This document shows, piece after piece, positions 1 through 19,467 of a stretch of 59,986 nt of DNA. Every line of letters starts with the position of its first letter. The first letter of the stretch is position 1. The stretch comes from Rhodoferax sp. (lineage in GTDB: Bacteria > Pseudomonadota > Gammaproteobacteria > Burkholderiales > Burkholderiaceae_C), in contig VMTC01000036.1 of assembly GCA_013791765.1 (NCBI GenBank), positions 1 to 59,986 on the forward strand. Direction: 5' to 3'. A program made the translations under genes and the position numbers. The notes beneath the pieces are model-generated. The model searched no databases. It worked only from the letters and a program-made list of their open reading frames with translations, and had not been told where the DNA came from.

Positions 1-214
1 CCGTTGAATAGCCGTAGACCAAAATTGCCAGCAAGGTGGCTGGGTGGTGTGCTTTGGAGCCGCGACCGGCATATTGGCGTGTCAGGCGGGAGAGATCAAG
101 GCCGTCGATGACTTCAACGACGAAGCGCGCCAGATGGTCCTAGGTGAGCCAGTCATCAACCGACGGGGGCAGCAAGTAGTCGGTCTTGCGGTCAGTCAGA
201 ATGAAGTTCGACAT
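1..214 (-). pseudogene. IS1182-family transposase, 5' part, with in-frame stop
   Basis: Read on the minus strand from the ATG at 214, the translation begins MSNFILTDRKTDYLLPPSVD and continues with ARFVVEVIDGLDLSRL, the typical N-terminus of IS1182-family (DDE) transposases. Codon 25 is TAG (140-142) where the family has a sense codon, so the gene is broken as written. The rest leaves the window at position 1. A good ribosome binding site (AAGAAGGA) remains just upstream. The element sits beside a decayed hydrogenase gene, so it may have taken part in that rearrangement, which is inference. Confidence 0.8.
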
Positions 215-514
215 GGTGGTTAAATCCTTCTTAAGCCACGTGTATTATAGCTTTAACACTATGTATTTAGTAGCAAATAAGAGAATATTTAAGTCCGACA
301 GGCTGCTAGAGACCGAAGTCAACCAGCCGCCGTGCGCGCGATCGTGCAGGAGCGCTGCGTGTCGCATATCTTCCGAAAGTCACTCGCAACCGCAAGCTGA
401 CCTTCCATGACTGTGTCTATGGCCCAGTTGCCCGGTTTTCGGCGATCTAATTTAACCAACAAAAACAAACACTTAAAACGGCCAATAAGGGTCTTCCCGG
501 AGTCATGTGCGTGT
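215..514. other. AT-rich stretch with no recognisable gene (IS end?)
   Basis: This region holds no convincing gene. The first ~90 bases are AT-rich upstream sequence of the transposase. Bases 291-309 (AAGTCCGACAGGCTGCTAG) resemble the outer end of an IS element, but the partner end is outside the window. Short readable pieces at 330-400 could be other transposase debris and are too short to assign. Confidence 0.3.
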
Positions 515-530
515 TGGTGCGTTAAATGCT
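515..530 (+). promoter_or_regulatory. Putative sigma54 (-24/-12) promoter, relic of the MBH hydrogenase promoter
   Basis: TTGGTGCGTTAAATGCT contains GG at 516-517 and GC at 528-529 separated by exactly ten bases, the spacing of sigma54 promoters. It lies about 100 bases upstream of the hoxK relic. C. necator hox operons are transcribed from sigma54 promoters activated by HoxA, and hoxA is present here at 13945. Match to the consensus is partial (the -24 CAC is not kept), so this is a candidate. It would drive hupE-hoxFUYHWI and possibly the whole cluster. Confidence 0.4.
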
Positions 531-632
531 TTACCTGCTAGCACTGCGCATGACAGCAGGACCTATGCCCCGAATGCTTTGGGCAGCAAAGTAGTCGGAA
601 TGAATCAAGAAAACAACTGGAGACATTTCACG

Positions 633-770
633 ATGGAGACCTTTTACGCGGTGATGCGCCGACATGGCATTTCACAAGTACTGATAAAGCCAACAGCCAC
701 GTTGTTGGGACTGGCGCCGCCTTTTGTGCGGCAGATTGCGCACCCCATGAAAGCCAATCCGCATTACTAA
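633..770 (+). pseudogene. hoxK: Decayed 5' end of MBH small subunit gene (hoxK relic)
   Basis: The translation [14 protein letters not shown] followed by [20 protein letters not shown] matches the Tat signal peptide region of group 1 membrane-bound [NiFe]-hydrogenase small subunits (C. necator HoxK starts with [20 protein letters not shown] and continues TATSLGLGPSFLPQIAHAME). The segment RRSFLK that carries the twin-arginine motif is lost or scrambled (QVLIKP). A stop follows at 768-770, before any of the iron-sulfur cysteines. Only ~45 of the usual ~360 codons remain, so no functional protein is expected. It shows that an MBH operon once started here. The reading frame is open upstream to 507 but only the part from 633 is family-like. 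Confidence 0.8.
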
Positions 771-782
771 TGCGCTGGCTGC

Positions 783-806
783 ACGGGCTGAAGAGCCCCG
801 TTTTTT
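783..806 (+). terminator. Hairpin plus T-run just upstream of hupE
   Basis: ACGGGCT-GAAG-AGCCCCGT pairs with one bulged base and is followed directly by six T residues (801-806). It looks like a rho-independent terminator at the end of the hoxK relic. It lies immediately before the hupE ribosome binding site (AAGGAG, 807-812), so if active it would reduce transcription from the relic promoter into hupE. Confidence 0.45.
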
Positions 807-821
807 AAGGAGACATTCAGG

Positions 822-1412
822 ATGAAAAAAAGTAACTTTCTGCAGTCACTGGGCGCTGTAGCTCTGCTGCTCACCACCGCCTCTGCGCAGGCGCACACGG
901 GGCACGGCACGGAAGGTTTTGCCGCCGGGCTGTCCCACCCCTTCATGGGGTTGGACCACCTGCTCGCCATGGTGGCCGTGGGAATCTGGTCTATGGCCAT
1001 TTTGCCTAAGGCCCTTCGCTTCGCGGGACCGATGGTGTTCATCGCCATGCTGCTCGTGGGTGCTCTTACCGCCATGGCGGGCGTGCTACTGCCCCAAGTG
1101 GAGTCGGGCATTGCTGTCAGCGTAGCAGTGCTGGGCGCCATGCTGCTGATGGCGCGCCGTATCGGTCTTGTGGCGGGGCTCACCATTGTGGCGGTCGCTG
1201 CTGTGTTCCATGGTTATGCCCATGGCGCCGAATTGGCCGCTGGTCATTCGTTTGCCGCCTATGCCGCTGGTTTCATGCTCGGGTCTGCTGCACTGCATGG
1301 CGCAGGTTTTGGTGCGGGTGTTGTTCTGCAACGTTTGCCCGTGTGGGTCGGCCGCAGCGTCGCCGCGCTGCTGGGCGCGTCTGGCCTGCTGATGCTGGCG
1401 ACACGTCTTTGA
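822..1412 (+). CDS. hupE: HupE/UreJ family nickel/cobalt transporter
   Basis: The 196-residue protein starts with a signal-like segment ending in AQAHTGHG and has about six membrane helices. It carries the family signature HPFMGLDHLLAMVAVG near residues 46-61, whose His and Asp residues are thought to bind the metal. HupE/UreJ proteins are secondary permeases bringing Ni2+ (or Co2+) into the cell for hydrogenase or urease, which fits the hydrogenase genes that follow. A clear ribosome binding site (AAGGAG) precedes the ATG. Base composition is high-GC, unlike the hoxFUYHWI block that starts 32 bases later, so hupE may belong to the older hydrogenase locus. Confidence 0.9.
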   Translation: MKKSNFLQSLGAVALLLTTASAQAHTGHGTEGFAAGLSHPFMGLDHLLAMVAVGIWSMAILPKALRFAGPMVFIAMLLVGALTAMAGVLLPQVESGIAVSVAVLGAMLLMARRIGLVAGLTIVAVAAVFHGYAHGAELAAGHSFAAYAAGFMLGSAALHGAGFGAGVVLQRLPVWVGRSVAALLGASGLLMLATRL

Positions 1413-1444
1413 GTGCCGGGTGTGATAACTAATCGGAAAATTTC

Positions 1445-3256
1445 ATGAAAAAAATCCACGAAATACTTGAGAATCACAATTCGGACAGAACCCGTTTGAT
1501 GGATATTCTTTGGGATATTCAGAATCAGTGGGGCTACATCCCCGATGAGATTCTGCCAGAAATGGCGGACAAACTCGGTTTGACTGAGTTAGATATTCGG
1601 GAGACCTATTCATTTTATCATTTCTTTCTTGGCAAACCTCCCGCCAAGCATCAGATATATTTAAGCGACACGGTCATTGCAAGAATGCATGGTTATCAGG
1701 CGGTCTACGATGCACTTGAACAAGAGACCGGATGTATCTTTGGTGAAAAAGATGTCACAGACACATTTGGCCTGAAAACAACATCTTGTATCGGTCTAAG
1801 CGACCAAGAGCCCGCGATGCTGATTGGCAAAGAGGTCTTTACACGATTGACACCTGAAAAAATTTCGCAGATTATCAGTCGCTTGAAAAGAGGTGACTCC
1901 CCTGCCGATATTGTCAATCCCGATGGCGTGGCAAGTGACACGCTGGCTTACATCAACACCATGGTGGAGTCTGGAATTCGTAGCAAAGGCGCTGTATTTT
2001 TCCAGAACAAAACTGATTTCAAAGCTTTGCTTAATCAGGTTATTAATACCCGTCCGGAGGTGATTATTAACACTGTTTCTGAATCCGGACTACGAGGACG
2101 CGGCGGCGCAGGTTTTTCAACGGGCTTGAAATGGCGCCTCTGCTCTGATAATGATGAAAATACAAGATTTGTCATCTGTAATGCTGATGAGGGTGAACCA
2201 GGCACATTCAAAGACAGAGTTTTGTTGATGGAGTCACCCAAGGAAGTAATTTTCGGAATGATCACTACCGGACATGCGATTGGTGCGCAGGAAGGAATTA
2301 TTTATCTGCGTTCTGAATACTACTACCTCAAGGACTATCTTGAGAAGCAGCTGGCAGACTTCCGTGCAGAGGGTCTGCTGGGCAAGTGCATTGGCGGTAA
2401 ACCGGACTTCAATTTCGACGTTCGCATCCAAATGGGTGCAGGCGCGTATATTTGTGGTGATGAAACCGCCTTAATTGAATCCATGGAAGGCAAGCGCGGC
2501 ACGCCACGTGTCAAGCCTCCTTATCCTGTCAATATGGGTTATCTGGGCAAACCAACCAGTGTCAATAATGTAGAAAGCTTTGTTGCCGTCACTCGAATTA
2601 TGGAAGAAGGCGCACTCTGGTTCAAGGCCATGGGTACAGCTGAGTCAACCGGTACCAGGCTATTGAGTATTTCCGGTGACTGCGATGCGCCAGGAATTTA
2701 CGAAATTGAATGGGGAGTCACGTTAAACGAGGTTTTGAAAAAGGCGGGTGCCAAGGATGCTTGGGCAGTTCAAGTCAGCGGTCCGTCAGGAGATTGCGTT
2801 TCGGTAAAGAAAGATGGTAACCGTGCAATCGCTTTGGAAGACCTCTCGTGTAACGGTTCATTCATGGTGTTTAATCGTTCTCGTGACCTCCTGGCTATCG
2901 TCAAACATTTTATGCAGTTCTTTGTGAATGAATCATGCGGAATTTGTGTCCCGTGCCGCTCTGGCAATGTTGATTTATTGAAAAAAATAAGCCGCGTCAT
3001 CGAAAATAAAGCATGTCAAAAAGATATTGATGAGGTCGTTGCCTGGGGGAAACTGGTGCGCAAGACGAGCCGGTGCGGGCTAGGGGGCACCTCACCTAAA
3101 CCCATTTTAACGACACTAGAGAAGTTCCCTGAAATATACCAGGAAAAATTGGTAAAGCAGATTGGCCCGCTACTGCCGTCCTTTGACCTGATTGAAAGCC
3201 AAAGGGGATACCTGGAAGCGGTCGCCACATTAAACAATAGGAGTACATGTTCATGA
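1445..3256 (+). CDS. hoxF: NAD-reducing hydrogenase diaphorase subunit HoxF
   Basis: HoxF is the FMN- and NAD-binding subunit of the cytoplasmic soluble hydrogenase HoxFUYH, passing electrons from H2 to NAD+. The 603-residue protein has an N-terminal NuoE-like domain (about 1-165) and a NuoF-like domain (about 180-600). The FMN/NADH loop GRGGAGFSTG is at 218-227. The [4Fe-4S] ligands are Cys498, Cys501, Cys504 and Cys544. The NuoE-like part shows only Cys97 and Cys115, so a classical NuoE [2Fe-2S] cluster is unlikely. Length matches C. necator HoxF (~602). The gene is visibly AT-richer than hypA onward. It overlaps hoxU by four bases. Confidence 0.97.
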   Translation: MKKIHEILENHNSDRTRLMDILWDIQNQWGYIPDEILPEMADKLGLTELDIRETYSFYHFFLGKPPAKHQIYLSDTVIARMHGYQAVYDALEQETGCIFGEKDVTDTFGLKTTSCIGLSDQEPAMLIGKEVFTRLTPEKISQIISRLKRGDSPADIVNPDGVASDTLAYINTMVESGIRSKGAVFFQNKTDFKALLNQVINTRPEVIINTVSESGLRGRGGAGFSTGLKWRLCSDNDENTRFVICNADEGEPGTFKDRVLLMESPKEVIFGMITTGHAIGAQEGIIYLRSEYYYLKDYLEKQLADFRAEGLLGKCIGGKPDFNFDVRIQMGAGAYICGDETALIESMEGKRGTPRVKPPYPVNMGYLGKPTSVNNVESFVAVTRIMEEGALWFKAMGTAESTGTRLLSISGDCDAPGIYEIEWGVTLNEVLKKAGAKDAWAVQVSGPSGDCVSVKKDGNRAIALEDLSCNGSFMVFNRSRDLLAIVKHFMQFFVNESCGICVPCRSGNVDLLKKISRVIENKACQKDIDEVVAWGKLVRKTSRCGLGGTSPKPILTTLEKFPEIYQEKLVKQIGPLLPSFDLIESQRGYLEAVATLNNRSTCS

Positions 3257-3957
3257 TGATTCAACTCAAAATTGACGGAAAAAACATCAACGCCCGAAAA
3301 GGCGAACCGTTGGTGGATGTTGCCTTGAAGAACGATATTTATATTCCGACTCTTTGTTATACGACAGGGCAAGCGTGTCTGGGCACCTGTCGAGTCTGCT
3401 CGGTGAAAGTGGATGGCGTAGTCACTGCCGCCTGTACCGTTCCGGTTGCACACGGCATGGACGTCGAAGTCAATGAGCCAGAAGTCACGGATATGCGCAA
3501 AGCGCTGGTTGAAAGCCTGTTTGCTGAGGGCACTCATAATTGTCCAAGCTGTGAAAAAAGTGGCCGCTGTGATTTACAGGCAGTGGGTTATGAGGTTGGG
3601 ATGATGGTGTCTCGCTTCGAGTATCGATTCACGCCACGGCGAAGAGATTACGCATCAGACAAGATTCTGCTCGAACGAGATCGTTGCATTTTTTGTCAGC
3701 GTTGCGTGGACTTTGTTCGTGATGAAGAAACTGGTCAAAAAATATTTAGTATTAGCGGCCGCGGTGCTAACTCCCGCATTGAAATCAATGCGGAATTCGC
3801 CAATAAGATGACTGCCGAGCAAGTTACCCGTGCGGTAAATCTCTGTCCGGTCGGCACAATTGTTGAAAAAGGCGTTGGCTTCAATGATCCGATCGGTAAA
3901 CGAAAATTCGAAATCAAGTCGGTACGCGAGCGCGCATTGGAAGGAGGCCCCAAATGA
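3253..3957 (+). CDS. hoxU: NAD-reducing hydrogenase diaphorase subunit HoxU
   Basis: HoxU is the iron-sulfur electron-transfer subunit linking HoxF to the hydrogenase module, homologous to the N-terminal part of complex I NuoG. The ferredoxin-like domain has CYTTGQACLGTCRVC and a later Cys for a [2Fe-2S] cluster. Then follow the HNCPSCEKSGRC motif and the DRCIFCQRCVDF motif with a later CP for [4Fe-4S] clusters. I start at 3253 because this ATG overlaps the hoxF stop as ATGA and lies about nine bases after AGGAG (3239-3243). The ATGs at 3247 and 3256 are alternatives. The protein is 234 residues, the usual length. Confidence 0.95.
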   Translation: MMIQLKIDGKNINARKGEPLVDVALKNDIYIPTLCYTTGQACLGTCRVCSVKVDGVVTAACTVPVAHGMDVEVNEPEVTDMRKALVESLFAEGTHNCPSCEKSGRCDLQAVGYEVGMMVSRFEYRFTPRRRDYASDKILLERDRCIFCQRCVDFVRDEETGQKIFSISGRGANSRIEINAEFANKMTAEQVTRAVNLCPVGTIVEKGVGFNDPIGKRKFEIKSVRERALEGGPK

Positions 3958-4604
3958 GCAACCATGCTGTGAAGCAAGCCGATTCTGCTATTAATGAGAT
4001 GTACAGTCACGATCTACCCAGAACCCCTGTGGATGCAGAATTCCTGGCAAGTCAGGAAGGGAAAATTAAGGTATCGATGATAGGCTTGTGCGGCTGCTGG
4101 GGCTGTACGCTATCAGTGCTTGATATGGATGAACGGCTTTTGGGCCTCTTGGATAAGGTCACCATTCTCCGCTCATCACTGACCGACATCAAGCGCATTC
4201 CGGAACGCTGTGTCGTCGGGTTTGTTGAAGGCGGCGTGGCGAATGAAGAAAACATCGAGACACTGGAGCATTTCCGCGAGAATTGCGACATCCTGATCTC
4301 GGTCGGTGCCTGCGCGATCTGGGGAGGCGTGCCAGCCATGCGTAACCAAGAGTCGCTCAGCGATTGTCTTGCCGAAGCCTATATCGGCTCTCCCACAGTC
4401 GTACTCGGTGTCATTCCTATTATTCCTGATCATCCTGATATTCCAAAGTTGACGACCAAAGTTTATCCATGCCATGACGTGGTCAAGATGGATTACTTTA
4501 TCCCCGGTTGTCCACCCGATGGAGACGCCATCTTAAAAGTACTCGATGACCTGGTAAATGGCCGTCCAGTGAATCTTCCGACATCGATCAATCGCTACGA
4601 TTAA
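3954..4604 (+). CDS. hoxY: NAD-reducing hydrogenase small subunit HoxY
   Basis: HoxY is the small subunit of the bidirectional [NiFe]-hydrogenase and holds the proximal [4Fe-4S] cluster. Seen motifs are GLCGCWGCTLS, VGACAIWGG and the C-terminal PGCPPDGD, which supply the cluster cysteines. There is no Tat signal, as expected for a cytoplasmic enzyme. At 216 residues it is of normal length and has a slightly extended N-terminus. The start overlaps the hoxU stop as ATGA, pointing to translational coupling. Confidence 0.96.
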   Translation: MSNHAVKQADSAINEMYSHDLPRTPVDAEFLASQEGKIKVSMIGLCGCWGCTLSVLDMDERLLGLLDKVTILRSSLTDIKRIPERCVVGFVEGGVANEENIETLEHFRENCDILISVGACAIWGGVPAMRNQESLSDCLAEAYIGSPTVVLGVIPIIPDHPDIPKLTTKVYPCHDVVKMDYFIPGCPPDGDAILKVLDDLVNGRPVNLPTSINRYD

Positions 4605-4617
4605 AGGGATATCTAAT

Positions 4618-6084
4618 ATGAGCAGGAAACTGATTATCGACCCCGTTACCCGTATCGAAGGTCACGGGAAAGTCGTCATCCAGCTTGATGATGACAACAA
4701 GGTCATTGATGCGAAATTGCACGTGGTTGAATTTCGTGGTTTTGAAAAATTCATTCAGGGGCACCCTTACTGGGAAGCACCGATGCTGTTGCAGCGTATT
4801 TGCGGCATCTGCTTTGTCAGCCATCACGTGTGCGGAGCCAAGGCACTGGATGATATGGTGGGCGTCGGATATTCGACACATAATCTGATTACCCCCACTG
4901 CGGAGAAGATGCGTCGACTAGGGCATTACGCACAGCAACTGCAGTCTCACGCAACGGCATATTTCTACTTGCTCGTGCCGGAAATGCTGTTTGGCATGGA
5001 TGCGGCGCCCGAAAAGCGCAATGTACTGGGTTTGGCGGTCGCCAATCCGGAGTTGGTTAAAAGGGTCGTCATGCTGCGCAAATGGGGACAGGAACTGATC
5101 ACGGCAGTACTGGGCAAGAGAATGCACGGGATCAGCTCCATTCCGGGTGGTGTGAATAACAATTTAACGGCTGAAGTACGAGATCGGTTCATCAAAGGTG
5201 ACGCTACCATCCCCAGCATGGAACAGATGCTCGATTATGCTCAAGAAGGCCTGCAGCTCTTTTATGACTTCCATGAAAAGAACCGCGTCATGGTCGATAG
5301 CTTCGGGGATGCGCCGGCATTGGATATGTGTCTGGTTGACGATAATGGTGATGTCGATTATTACCATGGCAAGTTGCGCATTATCGATAACGACAAGAAG
5401 ATCGTTCGCGAATTGGACTATCACGACTATCTTGATCATTTCTCTGAAGCGACCGAGGAATGGAGTTACATGAAGTTCCCGTTCTTGAAGGAACTCGGCA
5501 GGGAAAAAGGATCGGTGCGGGTGGGCGCCTTGGCGCGGGTGAATATTACAAAATCATATTCAACGCCACTGGCGCAAGCGGCTCTGGAAAAGTTTCATGC
5601 TTATAACAAAGGCAAGTCCAGTACCAAAGCCATGCACACCAACTGGGCCAGGGCAATTGAAATAATTCATTCAGCCGAACTGATTAAAGAGTTGCTGAAC
5701 GATCCAGACCTGCAAAAAGAGCAGTTGGTCGTCGCTGCCACGGAATCCATGTGGAAAGGCGAAGGCGTGGGCGTGGTGGAAGCGCCGCGCGGCACATTGC
5801 TGCATCACTACAGAGCCGATAAGGAAGGTAATATTACCTTCGCCAACCTGATAGTTGCCACGACACAAAATAACCAGGTAATGAATCGTACCGTGCGCAG
5901 CGTGGCCGAAGCATACCTGGATGGGCAGGCCGAAATCACCGAAGGCATGATGAATGCAATCGAAGTGGGTATTCGTGCCTTTGATCCTTGCCTGAGTTGT
6001 GCCACCCATGCCCTGGGTGAAATGCCTCTGGAGGTGACCTTGCTTGACGCGAAAGGAAATCAAATTGATGAACGCAGAAAGTGA
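4618..6084 (+). CDS. hoxH: NAD-reducing hydrogenase large subunit HoxH
   Basis: HoxH carries the Ni-Fe(CN)2CO site where H2 is split. The N-terminal cysteine pair is in RICGIC (about residues 60-65) and the C-terminal pair in DPCLSCATH. After that His a 24-residue tail (ALGEMPLEV...) follows, the peptide removed by HoxW once nickel is in place. The 488-residue length equals that of C. necator HoxH. A 13-base gap separates it from hoxY. hoxW begins inside its last codons. Confidence 0.97.
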   Translation: MSRKLIIDPVTRIEGHGKVVIQLDDDNKVIDAKLHVVEFRGFEKFIQGHPYWEAPMLLQRICGICFVSHHVCGAKALDDMVGVGYSTHNLITPTAEKMRRLGHYAQQLQSHATAYFYLLVPEMLFGMDAAPEKRNVLGLAVANPELVKRVVMLRKWGQELITAVLGKRMHGISSIPGGVNNNLTAEVRDRFIKGDATIPSMEQMLDYAQEGLQLFYDFHEKNRVMVDSFGDAPALDMCLVDDNGDVDYYHGKLRIIDNDKKIVRELDYHDYLDHFSEATEEWSYMKFPFLKELGREKGSVRVGALARVNITKSYSTPLAQAALEKFHAYNKGKSSTKAMHTNWARAIEIIHSAELIKELLNDPDLQKEQLVVAATESMWKGEGVGVVEAPRGTLLHHYRADKEGNITFANLIVATTQNNQVMNRTVRSVAEAYLDGQAEITEGMMNAIEVGIRAFDPCLSCATHALGEMPLEVTLLDAKGNQIDERRK

Positions 6085-6577
6085 TCTCACATTGGATTAT
6101 TTCAATGATGATTCAGCCCTGATCTACGGCATAGGCAATATCGGCCGCCAGGATGATGGTCTTGGCTGGGCCTTTGTTGACTGGCTGGCAAGCACATCGG
6201 CCTGTGCCAACGCGGAGATGGTTAAGTTTTATCAGCTCAATCTGGAAGATGCAGATTTAATCAGCCATAAGCAGCGGGTGTTATTTGTCGATGCCTCAAA
6301 GGACACGGCGATTAACAGCTTTCGCTTGTATAAAGCTGAGCCAAAAATGGATTTCAGTTTTACCTCGCATGCCATGTCCATAGAAGTCATTATGGCAACC
6401 TGTCAGATGTGTTTTGGAAAAATCCCTGAAGTCTATGTGCTGGCCATCAGAGGCTATGAATGGGAGTTGCGAATCGGTCTGACGGAGCAGGCTAAAAGCA
6501 ATCTTAATCTGGCGAGCACCCACCTCTATCGCACTGCAACGGCGCTGACTTCAAAGACTGACTATTGTTTGCAGTAG
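6068..6577 (+). CDS. hoxW: HoxH-specific maturation endopeptidase HoxW
   Basis: This HybD/HycI-family protease cleaves the C-terminal tail of HoxH after nickel insertion. The family motif GIGNIGRQDDGLG has the Asp that senses nickel, and a second region contains HAMSIEV with the conserved His. I choose the ATG at 6068 (MNAESDLT, 169 residues) because AAGGAAAT lies at a normal distance upstream. The in-frame ATG at 6044 would overlap hoxH by 41 bases. Either start leaves an overlap with hoxH, implying coupled translation with its substrate. Confidence 0.9.
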   Translation: MNAESDLTLDYFNDDSALIYGIGNIGRQDDGLGWAFVDWLASTSACANAEMVKFYQLNLEDADLISHKQRVLFVDASKDTAINSFRLYKAEPKMDFSFTSHAMSIEVIMATCQMCFGKIPEVYVLAIRGYEWELRIGLTEQAKSNLNLASTHLYRTATALTSKTDYCLQ

Positions 6578-6631
6578 TCAATATAGACTCACAATCACTT
6601 CCATACTTGATGAACTAACTGGAGATAAATA

Positions 6632-7132
6632 ATGAAAACTAATATTGAAGAAATAGCAACATTAATCTACAACGCACCTATTGGCCAATACATTGGTGAA
6701 ACTGGGGCAAAGATACTTGCGGAGCACGCGGCACAGAAGCTTGATTTGAAAGATAATGAGATTCTGTGTGAAAAAGGCGTTTCTACCAATTGCTTTTATA
6801 TAGTGACAAAAGGACGCCTGGCAATCACCAATGAAACAAAGGATAAACCATTTCCGACCATTTTACATATATTGGAAAAGGGTGATCTGATTGGAGAACT
6901 GAGTTTTATTGATAACTCTCCACATGCTGATACAGTACGTTCTTTGGGGGATTCTGGTGTTATCAGCTTCAACAAAACTGACATCACGCCATTAATTAAA
7001 GGTCACCCGGAGCTTATGTTCAATTTCATGCAGGCGGTCATCAAACGTGTTCACAGTACATTAACAGCCATTAATCGTCAGCAAAACGAACTGCTGACCT
7101 ACATCCAGACAGGTGGCCGAGGTCGGTTGTAA
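6632..7132 (+). CDS. hoxI: HoxI, cyclic-nucleotide-binding-fold accessory subunit of the soluble hydrogenase
   Basis: HoxI is known from the C. necator soluble hydrogenase, where two copies join the HoxFUYH tetramer and allow activation by NADPH. The 166-residue protein is one cNMP-binding (CAP-effector) domain followed by a helix. The phosphate-binding cassette reads GELSFIDNSPHADT (88-101). Where true cAMP binders have Arg, this protein has His98, so cyclic nucleotide binding is doubtful. The gene is the most AT-rich of the block: bases 6661-6720 are 25 G+C out of 60. It is the last gene of the low-GC segment. Confidence 0.88.
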   Translation: MKTNIEEIATLIYNAPIGQYIGETGAKILAEHAAQKLDLKDNEILCEKGVSTNCFYIVTKGRLAITNETKDKPFPTILHILEKGDLIGELSFIDNSPHADTVRSLGDSGVISFNKTDITPLIKGHPELMFNFMQAVIKRVHSTLTAINRQQNELLTYIQTGGRGRL

Positions 7133-7324
7133 TCAATCACCGCGTCCGTAGCCCGGATATTCAGGGCGGATACCATACACACTGGGATATTCGGATGTAT
7201 TTGCGGATGCTGGTAGTGCTTGTCGCATGGATGCTTTGCAGCGGATCTGCGTTGACACGCTGGGGCACGGTAATCGGAGTTGCCCTGGCGCACGCCCTTG
7301 GCGCTAACCCGACGGAGGGCTGCC
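7133..7324 (+). other. Intergenic junction between the soluble-hydrogenase block and hypA
   Basis: Base composition changes here from AT-richer to high-GC. The stretch contains a 45-codon open frame (7195-7332, MYLRMLVVLVAW...) with a hydrophobic start that runs into hypA in another frame. I do not recognise it. If remnants of hoxV or other lost MBH genes survive downstream of the replacement, they would be expected here, but I could not match any. Confidence 0.3.
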
Positions 7325-7669
7325 ATGCATGAGGCCAGTATTGCGGGAGGCATTCTCAAGCTGGTGGAGGACGTCAGGCAGCGCGAAGGGTTTCGCCGTG
7401 TAACCGTCCTGCGGATTGAGGCGGGGCAACTCGCCGGCGTGGAAGGGCGTGCGCTGCGGTTTGCCCTAGAGGCCCTGGCGCCAGGGACCTGCCTGCAGCA
7501 GGCACGCATTGACATTGACGAGCCCTCAGGCCAGGCTTGGTGCCTGCCCTGCGGTGAAACCATCGCGATCAAGCAGCGCGGCGACGCCTGCCCGCTATGC
7601 GGCCTCTACCAGTTGCAGGCCACGGGGGGCACTGAGCTGCGCGTGGTCGAGATGCTGGTGGATGACTGA
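7325..7669 (+). CDS. hypA: Hydrogenase nickel incorporation protein HypA
   Basis: HypA binds nickel and with HypB delivers it to the hydrogenase large subunit. The start is set by the invariant N-terminus MHEASI, whose amino group and His2 bind nickel. The zinc site is formed by CLPC and CPLC in the C-terminal half. The protein is 114 residues, the normal size. It is the first gene of the hypABFCDE-hoxX block, whose order and high-GC composition match the C. necator MBH operon downstream half. Confidence 0.95.
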   Translation: MHEASIAGGILKLVEDVRQREGFRRVTVLRIEAGQLAGVEGRALRFALEALAPGTCLQQARIDIDEPSGQAWCLPCGETIAIKQRGDACPLCGLYQLQATGGTELRVVEMLVDD

Positions 7670-7693
7670 CATGACAAACAAGGAGACAGCAAG

Positions 7694-8614
7694 ATGTGTG
7701 TAGTTTGCGGTTGCGCTGACGCCGGTACGGCTGAGGCTGTGGTGGAGGCTCCCGGCCATGCTCACGGGCATACCCACGGTCCCGAGGGGGATCATTCCCG
7801 CGAACATGCCCATGATCATGGGCAGGGCCACGGCCACATCGATCCCGGTAGCGGTGACCTGCATTTTGGTGCAGGTAAGGCACGGGTTTCGGTGCCTGGC
7901 ATGAGCCAGTCGCGAGCCATCAAGCTCGAGACGGACATTCTGGGTGCTAACAACCGCATCGCCAGCCAAAACCGTCACCACTTCGAGTCGCATGGCGTCA
8001 CGGCCCTGAATCTGGTCTCTAGCCCCGGCTCGGGCAAAACCACCTTGTTGTGCGCCACCATTGAAGCGCTGAAGGTCCGCGCGCCAGGCCTGCATGTGGC
8101 GGTGATCGAAGGCGACCAGCAAACCAGTTTTGACGCCGACCGCATTCGCGCCACCGGCGCGCCAGCCGTGCAAATCAACACGGGCAAAGGCTGTCACCTT
8201 GACGCACCGATGGTGGCACAAGCGTTTGCGCAACTGCACCAGCACCAGCACCACGATGCAGGCCACCATGATCACTCGCATGCTGACCCACGCAGCCTGC
8301 TGTTCATCGAAAACGTGGGCAACCTGGTATGCCCCGCTGTCTGGGACCTGGGCGAAGCGGCCAAAGTGGCTATTTTGTCGGTGACCGAGGGCGAGGACAA
8401 GCCGCTCAAGTACCCCGACATGTTTGCCGCTTCGAAGCTGATGATTATCAACAAGATCGACCTACTCCCCCATGTTCTCTTCGACGTGCAGCGCTGCATT
8501 GAATTCGCGCGTCGGGTCAACCCGAGCATTGAGGTGATTCAACTCTCTGGCACCACTGGCGAGGGCATGGGTACATGGCTGAACTGGCTTGGTTCAGCCA
8601 TGTACCCGGCATGA
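7694..8614 (+). CDS. hypB: Hydrogenase nickel incorporation GTPase HypB with two His-rich segments
   Basis: HypB is the SIMIBI-class GTPase that releases nickel to HypA/HydH-type targets. The N-terminal CVVCGC site (2-7) is followed by a His-rich tail with ten His between residues 22 and 48, a nickel store. The P-loop PGSGKTT is at 111-117. The G-domain metal site uses Cys167-His168 (GCHLD) and Cys213 (NLVCP). Between these lies an extra stretch, residues 182-197, with eight His, where the E. coli protein has a short acidic loop. AAGGAGAC upstream gives a good ribosome binding site. The last bases overlap the hypF start as ATGA. Confidence 0.96.
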
Positions 8615-9759
8615 AGCCTGGCAACTTGCCCCCCGTGCTGGCCTGCGGTGCGTGGCTCAAAAATGCGGCGTGTCTGCTCACGTCGGGGCAGCCCCAGTGG
8701 TCTGTACTGCACGGTGATTTGAGCCACCCCGACGCGTGTCGTGCGCTGGAAGTGTCGGCGCGTGCACTGCTGCACGATGCGCACCATCCGGTGGTGGCGG
8801 TGGCGCATGATCTGCATCCTGATTTTTACAGCTCGCGCCTGGCCACTGAACTGGCGCATGAACTTGGTGTACCGGCCATCGGCGTACAGCACCACCATGC
8901 GCACATTGCCGCCGTCATGGCCGAACATGGCGTGCAGGGTGCGGTGGTGGGCCTGGCGCTCGATGGCGTGGGCCTGGGTACGGACGGCGCCGCCTGGGGC
9001 GGCGAACTTCTGTGGGTGGATCAAACCGCTTGGCGCCGCATGGGCCATCTGTGGCCGCTGGCCTTGCCCGGTGGCGATGTGGCGGCACGCGAACCCTGGC
9101 GCATGGCCGCTGCGGCGCTGCACGCATTGGGCCGCACCCATCAAGTGGGCTCACGGTTTTCGTCGGTAGCAGGGGAAAGCGCTGCTCACATGGTGCAGCG
9201 CATGCTCGAGCGCAACATCAACTGCCCAGCCACCAGCAGCACGGGGCGCTGGTTTGATGCCGCCGCCGGGGCCTTGGGGCTCAGCGTGCACCAGGCCCAT
9301 GAGGCCGAGGCCGCGATGGCGCTGGAGCAACAGGCAACCGCATGGCTGGCGCAAAACCACACGCCAATTGTTTTACACGGCGTGGACACACAGGCCATGG
9401 AGCAACTCGATATCCGGTCCCTGCTGACACGACTTCTTGAAACCCCTGCAGATGGCGATGGCGTGCCCGCTGCTGCGGCCTGGTTTCATCTGGCCTTGGC
9501 CGATGCGCTGGCAGACTGGGCGGCACTGGCCGCTGAACAGACGGGCACCCGCACCGTGTGTCTGGGCGGTGGCTGCTTTTTAAACAAACTGCTAACGAGC
9601 CATGTCACGGCCAGCTTGCAACAGCGCGGCCTGCGCGTCCTGCTGCCTCAATCGTGCGGCGATGCGGGGCTGGCACTGGGCCAGGCCTGGGTCGCGGCGC
9701 ATCAGGTCGTTGCCGGTCACCCTACTCACCCTGAAACCGAAAGCCTGTCATGTGTCTAG
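8611..9759 (+). CDS. hypF: Truncated HypF (Kae1-like carbamoyltransferase domain only)
   Basis: HypF makes the thiocarbamate on HypE that becomes the CN ligands. Full HypF is ~750 residues with acylphosphatase, zinc-finger, YrdC and Kae1-like domains. This protein (382 residues from the ATG at 8611) has only the Kae1-like part, with [17 protein letters not shown], the [10 protein letters not shown] segment and the C-terminal [13 protein letters not shown]. necator HypF1 from the MBH operon is likewise a short form and is functional, so this is a known variant, not fresh damage. ATGA overlap with hypB favours 8611. An in-frame ATG at 8575 is the alternative. Confidence 0.9.
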
Positions 9760-9995
9760 CCATCCCTGCCAAACTCGTCGAGCTCCTGGCCAACGACCAG
9801 GCCATTGTCAATTTGGGCGGTATCTGCAAAAAAATTTCCGTCGCCCTAGTGCCAGGTGTTGTGGTCGGCGATTACGTCATCGTTCACGTCGGTCACGCCA
9901 TTGGGCGCATAGACCCTGAAGAAGCCGAACGCACGCTGGAATTGTTTGGTGAGATTGCGAAGTTCGAAGCCCAGCAGGCAGAGCTTGCCCCATGA
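9750..9995 (+). CDS. hypC: Hydrogenase assembly chaperone HypC
   Basis: HypC works with HypD to build and deliver the Fe(CN)2CO unit to the large subunit. The protein of 81 residues begins MCLAIPAK, with the essential Cys2, and has the OB-fold signature GDYVIVHVGHAIGRID. It overlaps hypF by ten bases and hypD by four (ATGA), so the trio is translationally coupled. Confidence 0.95.
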   Translation: MCLAIPAKLVELLANDQAIVNLGGICKKISVALVPGVVVGDYVIVHVGHAIGRIDPEEAERTLELFGEIAKFEAQQAELAP

Positions 9996-11137
9996 AATAC
10001 ATCGACGAATTCCGCGATGGCGCAATCGCCCGGAAAATTGCCGAGCGTCTGGCCGCCGAGGTGCAGCCCGGCAGGAACTACAGCTTCATGGAGTTCTGCG
10101 GTGGTCACACCCATGCAATTTCGCGCTACGGCGTAGCCGAACTGCTGCCAATGAACGTGCGCATGGTTCACGGGCCGGGTTGCCCTGTGTGTGTATTGCC
10201 GATTGGCCGCATCGACCTGGCCATCGGGCTGGCGCTGGAGCTTAATGTCATCGTATGCACCTATGGTGACACCATGCGCGTACCAGCGTCTGACGGCCTG
10301 TCACTGGTGAAGGCCAAGGCACGGGGTGGCGATATCCGCATGGTGTATTGCGCCGCTGATGCATTGACCATTGCGCGCCAGAACCCGGAGCGCGAGGTGG
10401 TATTTTTTGCCATCGGCTTCGAGACCACCACGCCACCGACGGCCTTGGCGATTCGTGATGCGCAGCGCCAGGGATTGAAAAATTTCACAGTGCTGTGCTG
10501 CCATGTACTGACGCCCTCGGCGATCACGCACATCCTGGAATCGCCTGAAGTCCGGCAATACGGCACGGTGCCGATTGACGGCTTCATAGGCCCGGCGCAT
10601 GTGAGCATCATCATCGGCTCAGGGCCCTACGAGCACTTTTCCGAGGAGTACCGCAAGCCGGTGGTGATTGCCGGGTTTGAACCCCTCGATGTCATGCAGG
10701 CTGTGCTGATGCTGGTGCGTCAGGTCAACGAGGGTCGCTGTGAAGTTGAAAACGAATTTACACGCGCCGTTGACCGCGATGGCAACCTCAGCGCCCAGGC
10801 ACTGGTCTCCGAGGTGTTTGAGCTGCGCACCAGTTTCGAGTGGCGTGGCCTGGGCGAGGTGCCCTACAGTGCCCTGAAAATTCGCCCCGCCTTTTCCGAG
10901 TTCGACGCCGAGCGTCGGTTTGAGCTAGCCTACCGTCCCGTGGCCGACAACAAGGCATGCGAGTGTGGTGCCATTTTGCGCGGCGTCAAGAAGCCCACAG
11001 ATTGCAAAATTTTCGGCACGGTCTGCACACCGGAAAACCCAGTCGGTTCCTGCATGGTCTCCAGTGAGGGCGCCTGTGCCGCCCACTATTCCTACGGGCG
11101 CTTTCGCGACATTGCCATCGTGGCAGAAACAGCATAG
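9992..11137 (+). CDS. hypD: Hydrogenase Fe-cyanide assembly protein HypD
   Basis: HypD is the [4Fe-4S] protein on which, with HypC, the iron receives its CN and CO ligands. Visible family motifs are MEFCGGHTHAIS with the essential Cys, GPGCPVCVLP with the redox-active cysteines, and the C-terminal cysteine cluster (CECGAILRG, CKIFG, CTPENPVGSC). At 381 residues it has full length. It sits between hypC and hypE, the invariant order. Confidence 0.96.
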   Translation: MKYIDEFRDGAIARKIAERLAAEVQPGRNYSFMEFCGGHTHAISRYGVAELLPMNVRMVHGPGCPVCVLPIGRIDLAIGLALELNVIVCTYGDTMRVPASDGLSLVKAKARGGDIRMVYCAADALTIARQNPEREVVFFAIGFETTTPPTALAIRDAQRQGLKNFTVLCCHVLTPSAITHILESPEVRQYGTVPIDGFIGPAHVSIIIGSGPYEHFSEEYRKPVVIAGFEPLDVMQAVLMLVRQVNEGRCEVENEFTRAVDRDGNLSAQALVSEVFELRTSFEWRGLGEVPYSALKIRPAFSEFDAERRFELAYRPVADNKACECGAILRGVKKPTDCKIFGTVCTPENPVGSCMVSSEGACAAHYSYGRFRDIAIVAETA

Positions 11138-11142
11138 CAAGC

Positions 11143-12192
11143 ATGGCCAAGAAAAACTACATTCGCCCACTCGACATCAAAAATGGCCGCATCGACATGG
11201 GCCACGGCGCCGGCGGGCGTGCCGCCGCCCAGCTGATTGAGGAGCTGTTTGTGGCCGCGCTGGACAACCCCTATTTGCGCCAGGGCGACGACAGCGCGTC
11301 GTTTGCCATGCCCTTGGGGGCGCGCATGGTGATGGCCACCGATGGCCACGTGGTGTCGCCCCTGTTTTTTCCGGGCGGTGATATTGGCTGTCTGAGCGTG
11401 CATGGAACCATTAACGACGTGGCCATGTCTGGGGCACAACCCCTGTACCTGGCAGCTAGTTTCATCATTGAAGAAGGTTTTCCGCTGGCCGACCTCAAGC
11501 GCATTGTGGACAGCATGGCGGCGGCCGCGCGTGAGGCCGGCGTGCCGGTCATTACCGGCGACACCAAGGTGGTGGAGCGAGGCAAAGGCGATGGCGTGTT
11601 CATCAGCACCACCGGCGTTGGTGTGGTGGCGCCAGGTGTTGACGTAGCAGGGGTCAATGCGCGCCCGGGCGATGTCATCCTGTTGTCGGGCACCATTGGC
11701 GACCACGGCGTGGCGATTCTCTCAAAACGCGAGTCGCTGGAGTTTGAAACCACGATTGAGTCCGATACAGCGGCCCTGCACACTCTGGTGGCGGCGATGC
11801 TGCAGGCCGCGCCCGGCGGTGTGCGCGTGCTGCGCGACCCGACACGCGGTGGGTTAGCCACCACGCTCAACGAAATCGCGGGCCAGTCTGGCGTAGGCAT
11901 GGTGTTGGAAGAGGCCGCTATTGCGGTGCTGCCGCAGGTCGATGCGGCCTGCGAGCTACTGGGCCTGGACCCCTTGTATATCGCCAACGAAGGCAAGCTG
12001 ATTGCAATTTGCAGCCCCGAGAGTGCCGATGCCCTGTTGCTGGCCATGCGTGCCCACCCGCTGGGGGCTCAGGCTGTGTGCATAGGGACTGTGACCGAGG
12101 ACCCGCACCATTTTGTGCAGATGAACACCCGTTTTGGGGGTCGTCGTGTGGTGGACTGGCTTAGCGGAGAGCAGCTGCCCCGCATCTGCTGA
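11143..12192 (+). CDS. hypE: Carbamoyl dehydratase HypE
   Basis: HypE dehydrates the carbamoyl group placed by HypF to a thiocyanate on its C-terminal Cys. The 349-residue protein has the AIR-synthase (PurM-like) fold with MGHGAGGRA near the start, the ATP-binding segment DPTRGGLATTLNEIA, and ends in the required PRIC. The gene starts five bases after hypD. Confidence 0.96.
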   Translation: MAKKNYIRPLDIKNGRIDMGHGAGGRAAAQLIEELFVAALDNPYLRQGDDSASFAMPLGARMVMATDGHVVSPLFFPGGDIGCLSVHGTINDVAMSGAQPLYLAASFIIEEGFPLADLKRIVDSMAAAAREAGVPVITGDTKVVERGKGDGVFISTTGVGVVAPGVDVAGVNARPGDVILLSGTIGDHGVAILSKRESLEFETTIESDTAALHTLVAAMLQAAPGGVRVLRDPTRGGLATTLNEIAGQSGVGMVLEEAAIAVLPQVDAACELLGLDPLYIANEGKLIAICSPESADALLLAMRAHPLGAQAVCIGTVTEDPHHFVQMNTRFGGRRVVDWLSGEQLPRIC

Positions 12193-12196
12193 CCCC

Positions 12197-13948
12197 ATGC
12201 GCATTTTGTTGCTCAGTCACAGCTTCAACAGTCTTTCGCAACGGCTGTTCGCGGCCTTGAAAGCACTGGGGCACCAGCTGTCTGTGGAGCTGGACATTTC
12301 GGACTCGGTGACCGAAGAAGCCTGTGCCCTGTTCCAACCTGATCTGCTGATTGCGCCGTTTCTCAAGCGGCGCATCCCTGAATCGGTCTGGCGTTCGGTG
12401 GTGTGCTTGGTGGTGCATCCTGGCCCGCCGGGGGACCGAGGGCCGGCCGCGCTGGATTGGGCGGTACTAGAGCAGGCGCCGCAGTGGGGCGTCACCGTGT
12501 TGCAGGCCAATGCCGATTTCGACGCGGGTCCAGTTTGGGCCCACGCCGACTTTGCGATGCGGGCAGCGAGCAAGGGGAGTCTTTACCGCGCCGAGGTCAC
12601 CCAGGCGGCCGTGGTGGCGGTGCTTCGCGCTGTGGAACGATTTGGCGTCAACGAGCCGCTGGCGCCACCAACCGCGGTAGATGCAGCCAGCCCGGACGCA
12701 TCTTGCGACCACTGGCGGCCCGCCGTGCCTCAAGCAGCCCGCCGCATCGACTGGCTGCGCAACACCACCACCGAGATACTGGCGCGACTGCGCAGCGCCG
12801 ATGGCCAGCCGGGCGTGCACGATGAACTGTTTGGCCTCCCCTGTTATTTATTTGACGCTCATCCTGCCACCGGAGCGGCCCTGCAGGCGCTGGCTGGTGC
12901 TGCTGTGGGGGCAGTGGTGGCCCAGCGCGATGGCGCCCTGCTGCGGCGCACCGTGGATGGCGGCGTCTGGATTGGACAGGTCCGCCTGGCCCGGGCCTGC
13001 GGTGACGGAACAGCATTCAAGCTGTCGGCCACTTTGGCATTTGCAGCCGAGGCGGCTACGCTGCCAGTGTGGTCAGTGCCACTCGAACGCGACGACGATG
13101 AGTGGGCCGAGCTGCGTTATTGGGAGCTGGGGCCTGCGCTCGCTCGCGTGGGCTGTCTGTCTTTTGACTTCTACAACGGCGCCATGTCCACCGAGCAGTG
13201 CGTGCGTCTGCTGGCTGCCATACGACATGCGAAACAGCGTGACACCCGCGTGCTGCTGCTGCTCGGCGGGCGCGACTTCTTCAGCAATGGCATCCACCTG
13301 AACTGCATCGAGGCCGCAGCGCATCGGCCCTTGAGCAGCGCCGCCGACGAATCCTGGCGCAACATCAACGCGATGAACGATGTGGCACAGGAGATCATTG
13401 AAGCCACAGACCGGATCACGGTGGCGGTGTTGCGCGGCAATGCCGGAGCGGGCGGCGTGTTTCTGGCTTTGGCGGCCGACGAGGTGTGGGCGCACCAAGG
13501 CGCGGTGCTGAACCCCCACTACCGCAACATGGGCAACCTCTACGGCTCGGAGTACTGGACTTATCTGTTGCCGCGGCGTCTGGGGCCAGAGCGGGCACGC
13601 ACGCTGATGACGCAGCGCCTGCCCCTGTTGGCCGTAGACGCGCAGCGCATGGGGCTGGTGGACCGCTGCCTGGACAGCGCCCCTGCAGCGCTCGAACGTG
13701 ACGTTATCCCTGATGCACTGGCGCTGGCCCTCACCTACAATTTACCGGAGAGAATCCTGCAAAAACAGCGGGTTCGCGCCGCTGATGAGGCCACCCGGCC
13801 ACTGGCTGACTACCGCAAAGAAGAATTGTCCCGCATGTACCGCAATTTTTACGGCTTCGACCCCAGCTACCACGTGGCTCGCTATCACTTTGTGCACAAG
13901 CTGCCCCACGCCTGGACACCACGGCATCTGGCCGTCCACCGGCCATGA
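12197..13948 (+). CDS. hoxX: HoxX/HypX, CO-ligand synthase for [NiFe]-hydrogenase maturation
   Basis: HoxX converts a formyl group, taken from formyl-tetrahydrofolate, into CO for the active-site iron under aerobic conditions. The N-terminal formyltransferase-like half contains HPGPPGDRGPAALDWA, the substrate loop. The C-terminal half is an enoyl-CoA hydratase/isomerase fold with GNAGAGGVFLALAADEVW and HYRNMGNLYGSEYW. I start at 12197 (MRILLLSHSFNSL, 583 residues), five bases after hypE. The frame is open further upstream but those residues are not family-like. Its presence suggests the hydrogenases are made in the presence of O2. Confidence 0.93.
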   Translation: MRILLLSHSFNSLSQRLFAALKALGHQLSVELDISDSVTEEACALFQPDLLIAPFLKRRIPESVWRSVVCLVVHPGPPGDRGPAALDWAVLEQAPQWGVTVLQANADFDAGPVWAHADFAMRAASKGSLYRAEVTQAAVVAVLRAVERFGVNEPLAPPTAVDAASPDASCDHWRPAVPQAARRIDWLRNTTTEILARLRSADGQPGVHDELFGLPCYLFDAHPATGAALQALAGAAVGAVVAQRDGALLRRTVDGGVWIGQVRLARACGDGTAFKLSATLAFAAEAATLPVWSVPLERDDDEWAELRYWELGPALARVGCLSFDFYNGAMSTEQCVRLLAAIRHAKQRDTRVLLLLGGRDFFSNGIHLNCIEAAAHRPLSSAADESWRNINAMNDVAQEIIEATDRITVAVLRGNAGAGGVFLALAADEVWAHQGAVLNPHYRNMGNLYGSEYWTYLLPRRLGPERARTLMTQRLPLLAVDAQRMGLVDRCLDSAPAALERDVIPDALALALTYNLPERILQKQRVRAADEATRPLADYRKEELSRMYRNFYGFDPSYHVARYHFVHKLPHAWTPRHLAVHRP

Positions 13949-15405
13949 AGCGGGCTGATACCTTGTCGACGGTTCTGGTGGTGGACGACGAAGTGCGTTC
14001 GCAAGAGGTCATGCGCCGCACGCTTGACGAAGACTTCACCGTTTACACCGCCGGCGATGCCCAAGAGGCCCGTGAGCGACTGGAGCGCACCGACATCAGC
14101 GTGATCCTGTGTGATCAGCGCATGCCCGGGCTGACCGGCGTGCTGTTCCTGAAGGAGGTGCGTGAGCGCTGGCCCGACACGGTGCGCATTGTGATCTCGG
14201 GCTACACCGACTCTGAAGACATCATTGCCGGCATCAACGAGGCGGGTATTTACCAATACATCCTCAAACCCTGGATCCCCGACCACCTGCTGGCCACCGT
14301 GCGCAATGCCGTGGAGGCGCAAACGCTGCAGCGCGACACCAACCGGCTGCACCTTGAGTTGCGCACCAGTACGCCGGTACTGCGCCAGCGTGCCACGGCC
14401 AAGCTCACAAAGGCTCGCAGCATCTTCGACTTCGACCGCATTGAGCGTGCGCCCGGCAGTCCGCTGGACGCCGTCTGCGAAGTGGCGGTGCGCGTGGCCC
14501 GCTATGACCTGAGCGTGCTGGTGCTGGGTGAATCCGGCACGGGCAAAGAACTGCTGGCGCGTGCCATGCACTACGCCAGCTCGCGTGCGGGTGGCGCCTT
14601 CGTGATGGAAAACTGCGCCGCCATCCCTGACACACTGCTTGAGTCCGAACTGTTCGGCCACAAGCGTGGCGCGTTCACGGGGGCCTATGAAGACCACCCC
14701 GGCCTGTTCCAGCGGGCCAGCGGTGGCACGATATTTCTCGACGAAATCGGCGAAACCTCACCGGCGTTTCAGGTGCGACTGCTGCGCGTGCTGCAGGAAA
14801 GAGAAGTGCGTCCGGTAGGGGCCGCGCACTCGGTGCCGGTGGACGTGCGCGTGATCGCGGCCACCCACCGCGACCTTGAGCAGCGCGTGCGTGAAGGGCT
14901 GTTTCGTGAAGACCTGTACTACCGCATTGCCGGCGTCTCGATCACCGTTCCATCGCTACGCGAACGTGCGGGCGACATCGCGCCGATTGCCCGGCGTCTG
15001 GTGCAGGAGGTGGGCGCCGAGCTCGGGCGCCCCGAGGCCACCCTCAGCGATGAATCCCTAGCCTGCCTGATGGGCTACCCCTGGCCCGGCAATATTCGCG
15101 AATTGCGCAACGAGATTGCGCGCGCCATCGCGCTCAGCGATGGCGCTGTGATCGCCGCCCAGTCTTTCTCCTTACGCGTGCTGCACGGTCAGGCCGGCCT
15201 GGCGACCGCCAGACAGGCGGGGGCGCAAGGGACGGCGCTACCGCGTAGTGGCACTTTAGGTGAGCGGCTCGATGCCATCGAAGCCATGGTGCTGCGTGAA
15301 ACCCTGCTGCGCCACCGCTGGAACAAGACGCGCGCTGCCACTGAGCTGGGCTTGTCGCGTGTCGGCTTGCGCGGCAAGATGGCCCGCTTCGGGCTGGAAG
15401 GCTGA
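13945..15405 (+). CDS. hoxA: HoxA, NtrC-family activator of hydrogenase genes
   Basis: HoxA activates sigma54 promoters of hox operons. The receiver domain has the phospho-acceptor Asp57 in LCDQRMPG. The AAA+ domain carries the Walker A GESGTGKE, the sigma54-contacting GAFTGA loop and the Walker B region GGTIFLDEIGE. A Fis-type helix-turn-helix lies near the end (RAATELGLSRVGLRGK). In C. necator HoxA is active when not phosphorylated and is silenced by HoxJ. The gene overlaps hoxX as ATGA. Confidence 0.93.
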   Translation: MKRADTLSTVLVVDDEVRSQEVMRRTLDEDFTVYTAGDAQEARERLERTDISVILCDQRMPGLTGVLFLKEVRERWPDTVRIVISGYTDSEDIIAGINEAGIYQYILKPWIPDHLLATVRNAVEAQTLQRDTNRLHLELRTSTPVLRQRATAKLTKARSIFDFDRIERAPGSPLDAVCEVAVRVARYDLSVLVLGESGTGKELLARAMHYASSRAGGAFVMENCAAIPDTLLESELFGHKRGAFTGAYEDHPGLFQRASGGTIFLDEIGETSPAFQVRLLRVLQEREVRPVGAAHSVPVDVRVIAATHRDLEQRVREGLFREDLYYRIAGVSITVPSLRERAGDIAPIARRLVQEVGAELGRPEATLSDESLACLMGYPWPGNIRELRNEIARAIALSDGAVIAAQSFSLRVLHGQAGLATARQAGAQGTALPRSGTLGERLDAIEAMVLRETLLRHRWNKTRAATELGLSRVGLRGKMARFGLEG

Positions 15406-15407
15406 AT

Positions 15408-16433: not shown

Positions 16434-16443
16434 ATCGCCTGCC

Positions 16444-19382: not shown

Positions 19383-19408
19383 TGAAGTCCGTTATTGCGA
19401 ACCGACAA

Positions 19409-19436
19409 TTGCCAAACCCGCCAAGTTCAGGATAAT
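19409..19436 (+). promoter_or_regulatory. Putative sigma70 promoter for the glgP operon
   Basis: TTGCCA (19409-19414) and GATAAT (19431-19436) are separated by 16 bases. They lie between the end of hoxJ and the glgP ribosome binding site (GCGGGAG), 32 bases before its ATG. This would separate the solute genes from hydrogenase control. It is sequence matching only. Confidence 0.4.
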
Positions 19437-19467
19437 TTCTGGTCACAACTTTTGCGGGAGACCGACC

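Follow-up and report, generated by a model that had tools for sequence, protein, structure and literature searches.

The window analysed here is the entire contig VMTC01000036.1 (59,986 bases) of Rhodoferax sp. GCA_013791765.1, and its hydrogenase cluster is a mosaic, spanning 377–19311, in which the genes of an NAD-reducing soluble hydrogenase (SH) stand inside the remains of an operon for a membrane-bound hydrogenase (MBH). From gene calls, profile searches and comparison with the proteins of Cupriavidus necator pHG1, the order is a decayed hoxK start, hupE, hoxFUYHWI, hypABFCDE and hoxXABCJ. We consider it very probable that a Rhodoferax-type MBH operon lost its MBH-specific genes and received a foreign C. 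necator-type hoxFUYHWI, while keeping its promoter, hupE, the hyp genes, hoxX, HoxA and the H2 sensor. An initial annotation, made from the sequence, had proposed that the SH replaced the MBH inside its own operon, and the mosaic, the hoxK fossil, the operons of close kin and the absence of an MBH small subunit all speak for that proposal.

The clearest view of the operon before the exchange comes from two same-genus genomes with an intact MBH operon, G025 (the Rhodoferax sp. KJN.1 record, locus L061) and G017, both of which have the order hoxK–hoxG–hupE–hoxZ–hoxMLOQRTV–hypABFCDE–hoxXABCJ; these are same-genus strains of the kind the initial annotation had envisaged, with hoxK, hoxG and hoxZ intact before the same hypA–hoxJ part. 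Using blastn, window 1–20000 aligned with G025 at 377–760 (65.6%), 808–1406 (71.3%) and 7311–19311 (84.6%), and with G017 at 444–760, 803–1400 and 7315–19290, the last in three pieces. Ten flank proteins are 78–97% identical to those of G025, while nine are 58–84% identical to those of L093, a locus from a metagenome-assembled genome (MAG) of Glaciimonas sp. KJC.1 that is considered further below. The regulatory genes hoxA, hoxB, hoxC and hoxJ are all open (85–93% to G025), as are the SH and hyp genes, and the last six codons and stop of a former hoxV (7312–7332) still overlap the start of hypA (7325–7669; PF01155; 82% to G025), reading TEGCHA in the window and TEDCHA in G025. The hupE gene (822–1412; PF04955, E 5e-50) had been grouped with the replacing SH genes, which the comparison contradicts: since G025 and G017 carry hupE inside the same operon, between hoxG and hoxZ, its position identifies it as an original MBH-operon gene.

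What is left of hoxK lies at 633–770 (45 codons and a stop), within a stretch of DNA homology at 607–796. Residues 2–49 of C. necator HoxK match window 633–764 with 57% identity (E 9.5e-8), the sole match in the genome at E ≤1. A hoxK-start DNA profile was built from 33 of 57 loci (the rest had no strong hoxK match), with the window and L093 excluded, and was run against 14 sequences (L093 twice) plus ten codon-shuffled windows; it matched the window at E 4.2e-30, and beyond the window and L093 the next matches were a codon-shuffled window at E 0.94 and then E 1.3 or worse. The decayed hoxK start claimed upstream of the SH genes is thus borne out by both searches, including the alignment of 633–770 to HoxK by profile that had been named beforehand as a check. 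In the alignment the stub lacks 14 bases across the twin-arginine motif and has gained 2, and the hoxK motif WLHGL is reached in another reading frame; as HoxK is 99.7% identical between G025 and G017, this decay reflects lost constraint. When the 45-residue stub was searched against PDB sequences, all entries returned were phosphotriesterase-like (E 0.41 or worse).

Apart from this 45-codon stub, the window locus has no hoxK, hoxG or hoxZ of its own: most of hoxK, all of hoxG, and hoxZ through nearly all of hoxV are gone. Remnants of hoxG to hoxT were sought in the window, and none was seen beyond hoxG and hoxV matches to the HoxC, HoxH and HoxB regions. The loss extends to the genome as a whole (4.17 Mb in 136 contigs; completeness 100%, contamination 0.89%), where the suggested search for MBH genes elsewhere found no MBH small subunit with either the PF14720 profile or HoxK; the single PF14720 small-subunit match is HoxB. 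Matches to PF00374 comprise HoxC, the HoxH of the cassette and, on contig C117, a further SH large subunit; a weak place on C32 stays below the cut-off.

The inserted cassette has approximate limits of 1437–7137 and is 79.0% identical to L093 by blastn. It comprises hoxF (1445–3256; 85% protein identity to L093), hoxU (3247–3957; 84%), hoxY (3954–4604; 82%), hoxH for the large subunit, with both Cys motif regions present (4618–6084; 92%), hoxW for the maturation protease (6068–6577; TIGR00072; 78%) and hoxI (6632–7132; PF00027; 78%), which is the order of the C. necator-type group 3d SH (HoxFUYHI). In the SH tree it groups with the C. necator SH, apart from the other 3d type (100/100), and its HoxH is 77% identical to that of C. 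necator. When the region was cut into 64 bins of 400 bases, the 20 bins starting at 1201–6901 matched L093 best, while 3 before 1201 and 41 from 7201 on matched G025 or G017 best. Composition changes as well, with GC of 39–52% at 1501–7000 against 59–69% at 7501–19500, and third-position GC of 0.40–0.59 in the six SH genes, 0.68 in hupE and 0.69–0.81 in hypA–hoxJ (hypC excluded). Measured against L093, the dN/dS ratios (NG86) of the six SH genes are about 0.03–0.13 (dN/dS of 0.044/1.36 for hoxH and 0.138/1.04 for hoxW), and such low values suggest that the cassette encodes a working enzyme.

Upstream of the stub, the former promoter region of the MBH operon (377–632) was recognised by blastn and alignment to the regions upstream of hoxK in G025 and G017, and it includes a sigma54-like –24/–12 site at 515–529, TGGTGCGTTAAATGC, that aligns with the promoters of both. 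Scored against a sigma54 consensus, a site with at least 8 of 11 positions occurs within 300 bases before hoxK in 13 of 29 MBH loci, and sites of 10/11 lie before the hoxK stub of L093 and before hoxF of L072, a locus from a Hydrogenophaga sp. Bet4 MAG. A profile of 12 such promoters had its top match upstream of hoxN on pHG1; it matched L072 at E 0.0011 and the window at E 0.011, and missed the L093 site. The profile and the site scores lend weak support. For the sigma54-like promoter that the initial annotation had placed here, it is the position, in line with the promoters of kin, that gives support, and not the score.

Several observations weigh against the replacement. The window site keeps 8 of the 11 consensus positions, compared with 10 in G025, G017, L093 and L072, and a score at least as high is reached by 25% of random 300-base stretches taken from the window, so that the site, although backed by its position, is indistinguishable from chance by score; with a weaker –24/–12 site, expression may be lower or begin elsewhere. 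Identity of hupE to G025 (70%) is below that of hypA–hoxJ, though the hupE genes of G025 and G017 themselves differ by 15%. Alignment to these two genomes is confined to 377–19311 and therefore gives no common chromosomal position, and both joins of the mosaic are known from the assembly alone. The spacer between the cassette and hypA, at 7138–7311, has no explanation in the replacement model: its best blastn match among the fetched loci is E 0.029 over 21 bases, and its protein matches are chance-like. Finally, the dS of the cassette against L093 is 1.0–2.4, near saturation, which makes L093 a relative of the source and not the direct source. Beside the spacer it can be noted that 7138–7332, read in the same frame as the hoxV tail, runs open through 65 codons, with no likeness to any hoxV sequence.

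From the genes kept and gained we infer how the cluster would be transcribed, regulated and active, and in what order it arose. The cassette would supply its own protease, HoxW, and the resident Hyp proteins could mature the enzyme; HoxBC would sense H2, upon which HoxJ would leave HoxA active, and HoxA together with sigma54 would drive the old hoxK promoter. The product would thereby switch from a periplasmic, quinone-reducing enzyme to a cytoplasmic one that reduces NAD+ with H2. In C. necator, the MBH and SH promoters are both described as needing sigma54 and HoxA, and full SH maturation as requiring hypC1D1E1 of the MBH operon (PMC4377017); an SH is therefore suited from the outset to the genes by which an MBH operon is controlled and its enzyme assembled. 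The regulatory hydrogenase is described as acting via HoxJ on HoxA (PMC11540253). As the genome also encodes a 480-residue RuBisCO large-subunit frame, we propose that H2-derived NADH could feed CO2 fixation.

A similar arrangement occurs in two other Burkholderiales. In Glaciimonas L093, a hoxK stub at 2696–2847 (profile E 1.1e-15) ends near codon 46 and, unlike that of the window, is not followed by hupE; hoxF starts about 100 bases later, and the sigma54-like site before the stub, TGGCACAGAATTTGC, aligns with that of Herbaspirillum L090. In Hydrogenophaga L072, hoxFUYHWI is followed by a short HupE-like frame and then hypA, and neither the profile nor a search of the locus found a hoxK remnant nearby. 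In both genomes, which are MAGs of unstated completeness, PF14720 matches only HoxB, and the absence of MBH is to be read accordingly. While the SH tree places the window and L093 as sisters (100/99), the flank tree separates all three: the window falls with G025 and G017 (100/100), L093 with Oxalobacteraceae (L106 95/92; L090 100/100) and L072 with the Hydrogenophaga MBH locus L094 (96/96). The flank tree was made from HypD, HypE, HoxA and HoxB for 23 of the 54 rows of a FastTree run, hand-chosen for hoxABCJ-bearing clades, so that other operon types were dropped; its rows are tblastn-aligned stretches and not full gene models. Approximately unbiased (AU) tests reject grouping the window with L093 (p 1.9e-6), the window with L072 (2.7e-7), L093 with L072 (7.9e-11) and all three together (2.1e-5).

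It is on the fossils and these tests, and not on counts of label changes, that separate origins are argued: the flank tree has three such changes, equal to the shuffled mean of 2.9, which could be one gain and two losses, and its MBH label includes L097, L106 and L075, where MBH was not seen. Since the fossils of two clades, Rhodoferax and Glaciimonas, break off at different points, two events are likely; a third, at L072, is suggested by gene order and the tree. The swap has thus probably recurred, and an independent exchange of this kind seems to have taken place in at least one distant relative. We regard it as likely that an exchange slot lies between the hoxK promoter and hypA, into which unrelated Burkholderiales independently inserted the same cassette, such that electrons from H2 are switched between quinone and NADH by a module swap under unchanged control.

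In a stepwise variant of this explanation, to which we give about even chances, the cassette first entered after hupE beside a working MBH, whose genes were lost afterwards in two separate deletions; two gaps, hoxK–hoxG and hoxZ–hoxV, are needed here with hupE kept between them, and other MBH operons do hold an SH of another type after hoxA (L063, L065, L067, L068, L069 and L079), but MBH together with a C. necator-type SH in the same slot was not seen among the fetched loci. In those six operons the other SH type is represented by hoxF, and mostly hoxU, directly after hoxA, at the place that hoxB occupies in other operons.

The confinement of the likeness to G025 and G017 within the two cluster edges (377 and 19311) is also what would be seen had the finished mosaic been built in an unsampled relative and arrived whole by horizontal transfer, the replacement then being real but having happened elsewhere. 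An insertion sequence (IS) fragment at the contig edge, and the presence of Cupriavidus hydrogenase clusters on islands and a megaplasmid, fit such an arrival. We nevertheless hold it to be unlikely, as the flank groups with the same-genus G025 and G017, these two also differ from each other in a way that makes local rearrangement possible, and no plasmid record carries the mosaic: megablast of window 1–20000 gave 6 records, all matching parts of the flank only, at 76–78%.

The sharp steps in GC and similarity, with joins known only from the assembly, would also suit a chimera of two organisms; this is very improbable, as it would need two joins, both at gene borders, and would leave unexplained the decayed hoxK stub, the stub plus SH in L093, and the lack of any MBH small subunit in so complete and little contaminated a genome. 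That hoxFUYHWI–hyp–hoxXABCJ is instead the old order, with MBH genes inserted in relatives, is scarcely credible, for although three loci share the arrangement, it is contradicted by the fossils (hoxK start and hoxV tail in the window, hoxK start in L093), and the three flanks lie in three places in the tree, with their grouping rejected. The initial annotation had considered such an ancestral order; L093 and L072 do have hoxFUYHWI before the hyp genes with no MBH found, but the order looks derived, because L093 has a hoxK fossil of its own and the three flanks are apart. Replacement within a resident MBH operon thus remains our preferred explanation.

The distribution of C. necator-type SH was followed through HoxH in draws of genomes that overlap in part. 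The genus search found it in its own genome only among 89 (next 51%), the family search in five of 399 at ≥72%, its own included (next 52%), and the order search in its own only among 399 at ≥72% (next 53%); the class search gave three of 369, again with its own included, and the phylum search its own only among 398 at E 1e-180. With pHG1, L072 and L093 added, there are ten loci, two of which (G266 and G343) are nearly the same. The cassette stands before an MBH-type hyp–hoxX part in the window, L093 and L072, before hypA2B2F2 on pHG1, and before another hyp set in G1080, where hoxI was not found. No hyp genes lie near it in the 20–30 kb fetched from G177, G266, G343, G161 and G878, whose hoxFUYHWI cassettes are L174–L178, L192 and L194. 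Of these, G343 and G161 retain a sensor locus for H2 (hoxA, B, C, J) but lack an MBH small subunit; the related G266 possesses the two together. The genomes of G025 and G017 contain no C. necator-type SH.

Compared with known systems, the window resembles pHG1 of C. necator H16 (NC_005241) in its hyp–hoxXABCJ part, which is that of the MBH operon, and in its hoxFUYHWI, which is that of the SH operon; on pHG1, however, these are separate and complete operons, and the SH is accompanied by a hypA2B2F2 set of its own, in which hypF is long. Closer in outline is island CMGI-3 of Cupriavidus metallidurans CH34, reported to hold hoxFUYHWI, hoxN, a partial hoxV, hypA2B2F2C2D2E2 and hoxXA (PMC2864759), and so to unite hoxFUYHWI in one cluster with an MBH-operon tail (partial hoxV, hypABFCDE–hoxXA). 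Unlike the window, CH34 has a full MBH on CMGI-2, its hyp set was read by the authors as a duplicate, the cluster is described without an H2 sensor and with hoxN and other loci intervening, and the passages of that paper on the island mention no hoxK remnant (PMC2864759). The G025 and G017 operons share the promoter region, hoxK start, hupE and hypA–hoxJ with the window, and differ in having hoxK, hoxG, hoxZ and hoxMLOQRTV and no C. necator-type SH in the genome. L093 shares the hoxK stub, hoxFUYHWI, hypA, hypBFCDE, hoxXABC and the hoxJ start, but its stub joins hoxF directly, another hupE lies between hypA and hypB, and its flank is of the Oxalobacteraceae type; L072 shares hoxFUYHWI, hypABFCDE, hoxXABC and the hoxJ start, though its SH falls closer to the C. 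necator group. An open-access literature search, mostly at the level of listings, returned no description that we recognised of an SH lodged within an MBH operon beside a remnant of hoxK. The union of SH and MBH-operon tail is known already from CH34; in the window and L093 it is the MBH genes themselves that are gone.

The window thus appears to preserve a natural case in which promoter, sensor and assembly genes were kept while the enzyme was swapped for one of another class. This suggests that hyp, hoxX, the sensor and hupE are interchangeable parts, with hoxMLOQRTV bound to the MBH and hoxWI to the SH. The predicted organism lacks any MBH and, under the control of its H2 sensor, oxidises H2 with formation of NADH. 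If the exchange slot is real, an H2 sensor and maturation set that evolved with a respiratory MBH would now serve a cytoplasmic enzyme. The case also advises caution, in that the class of hydrogenase an operon makes cannot be read from its hyp or regulatory genes.

The retained part downstream of hypA, all on the plus strand like the rest of the cluster, has the gene order that the initial annotation gave: hypB (7694–8614; TIGR00073), a short hypF of 394 amino acids (8575–9759; TIGR00143 positions 389–740 only), hypC (9750–9995), hypD (9992–11137; TIGR00075), hypE (11143–12192; TIGR02124), hoxX or hypX (12197–13948), hoxA for an NtrC-type activator (13945–15405; 93% to G025), hoxB and hoxC for the small and large subunits of the sensor hydrogenase (15408–16433 and 16444–17901) and hoxJ for a histidine kinase (17886–19382), within which likeness to relatives ends at 19311. 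Its reading of the short hypF as a mark of MBH operons fails, as five loci with another SH type (L089, L101, L107, L108 and L109) also match hypF1 best, with hypC 1.1–1.2 kb after the hypF start. In these loci hoxFUYHW (35–49% to C. necator) stands directly before hypABFCDE, the L108 sequence ending inside hypD.

Elsewhere in the Rhodoferax genome (G000), C117 (L059:5035-12436) carries a further SH that belongs to the other 3d type, with hoxU, hoxY, hoxH, a 1200-residue Cache-PAS-GGDEF-EAL protein and a hoxW-like gene; hoxF was not found in the fetched stretch, and the DNA upstream encodes a methyl-accepting chemotaxis protein (MCP) and a PEP-CTERM protein. A second hyp set on C64 (L060:8075-11932), comprising hypA2, hypB2, a full-length hypF2, hypC and part of hypD, stands away from both hydrogenase loci. 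At the edge of the window, 1–240 on the minus strand holds a fragment resembling the start of an IS1182-type transposase, with an in-frame stop and no profile hit, some 270 bases ahead of the sigma54-like site. On the 3′ side of hoxJ (19330–22427) follow an alpha-glucan phosphorylase and a mannosyl-3-phosphoglycerate phosphatase-like protein, and the remaining contig, where profiles matched, carries sensory, transport and regulatory genes.

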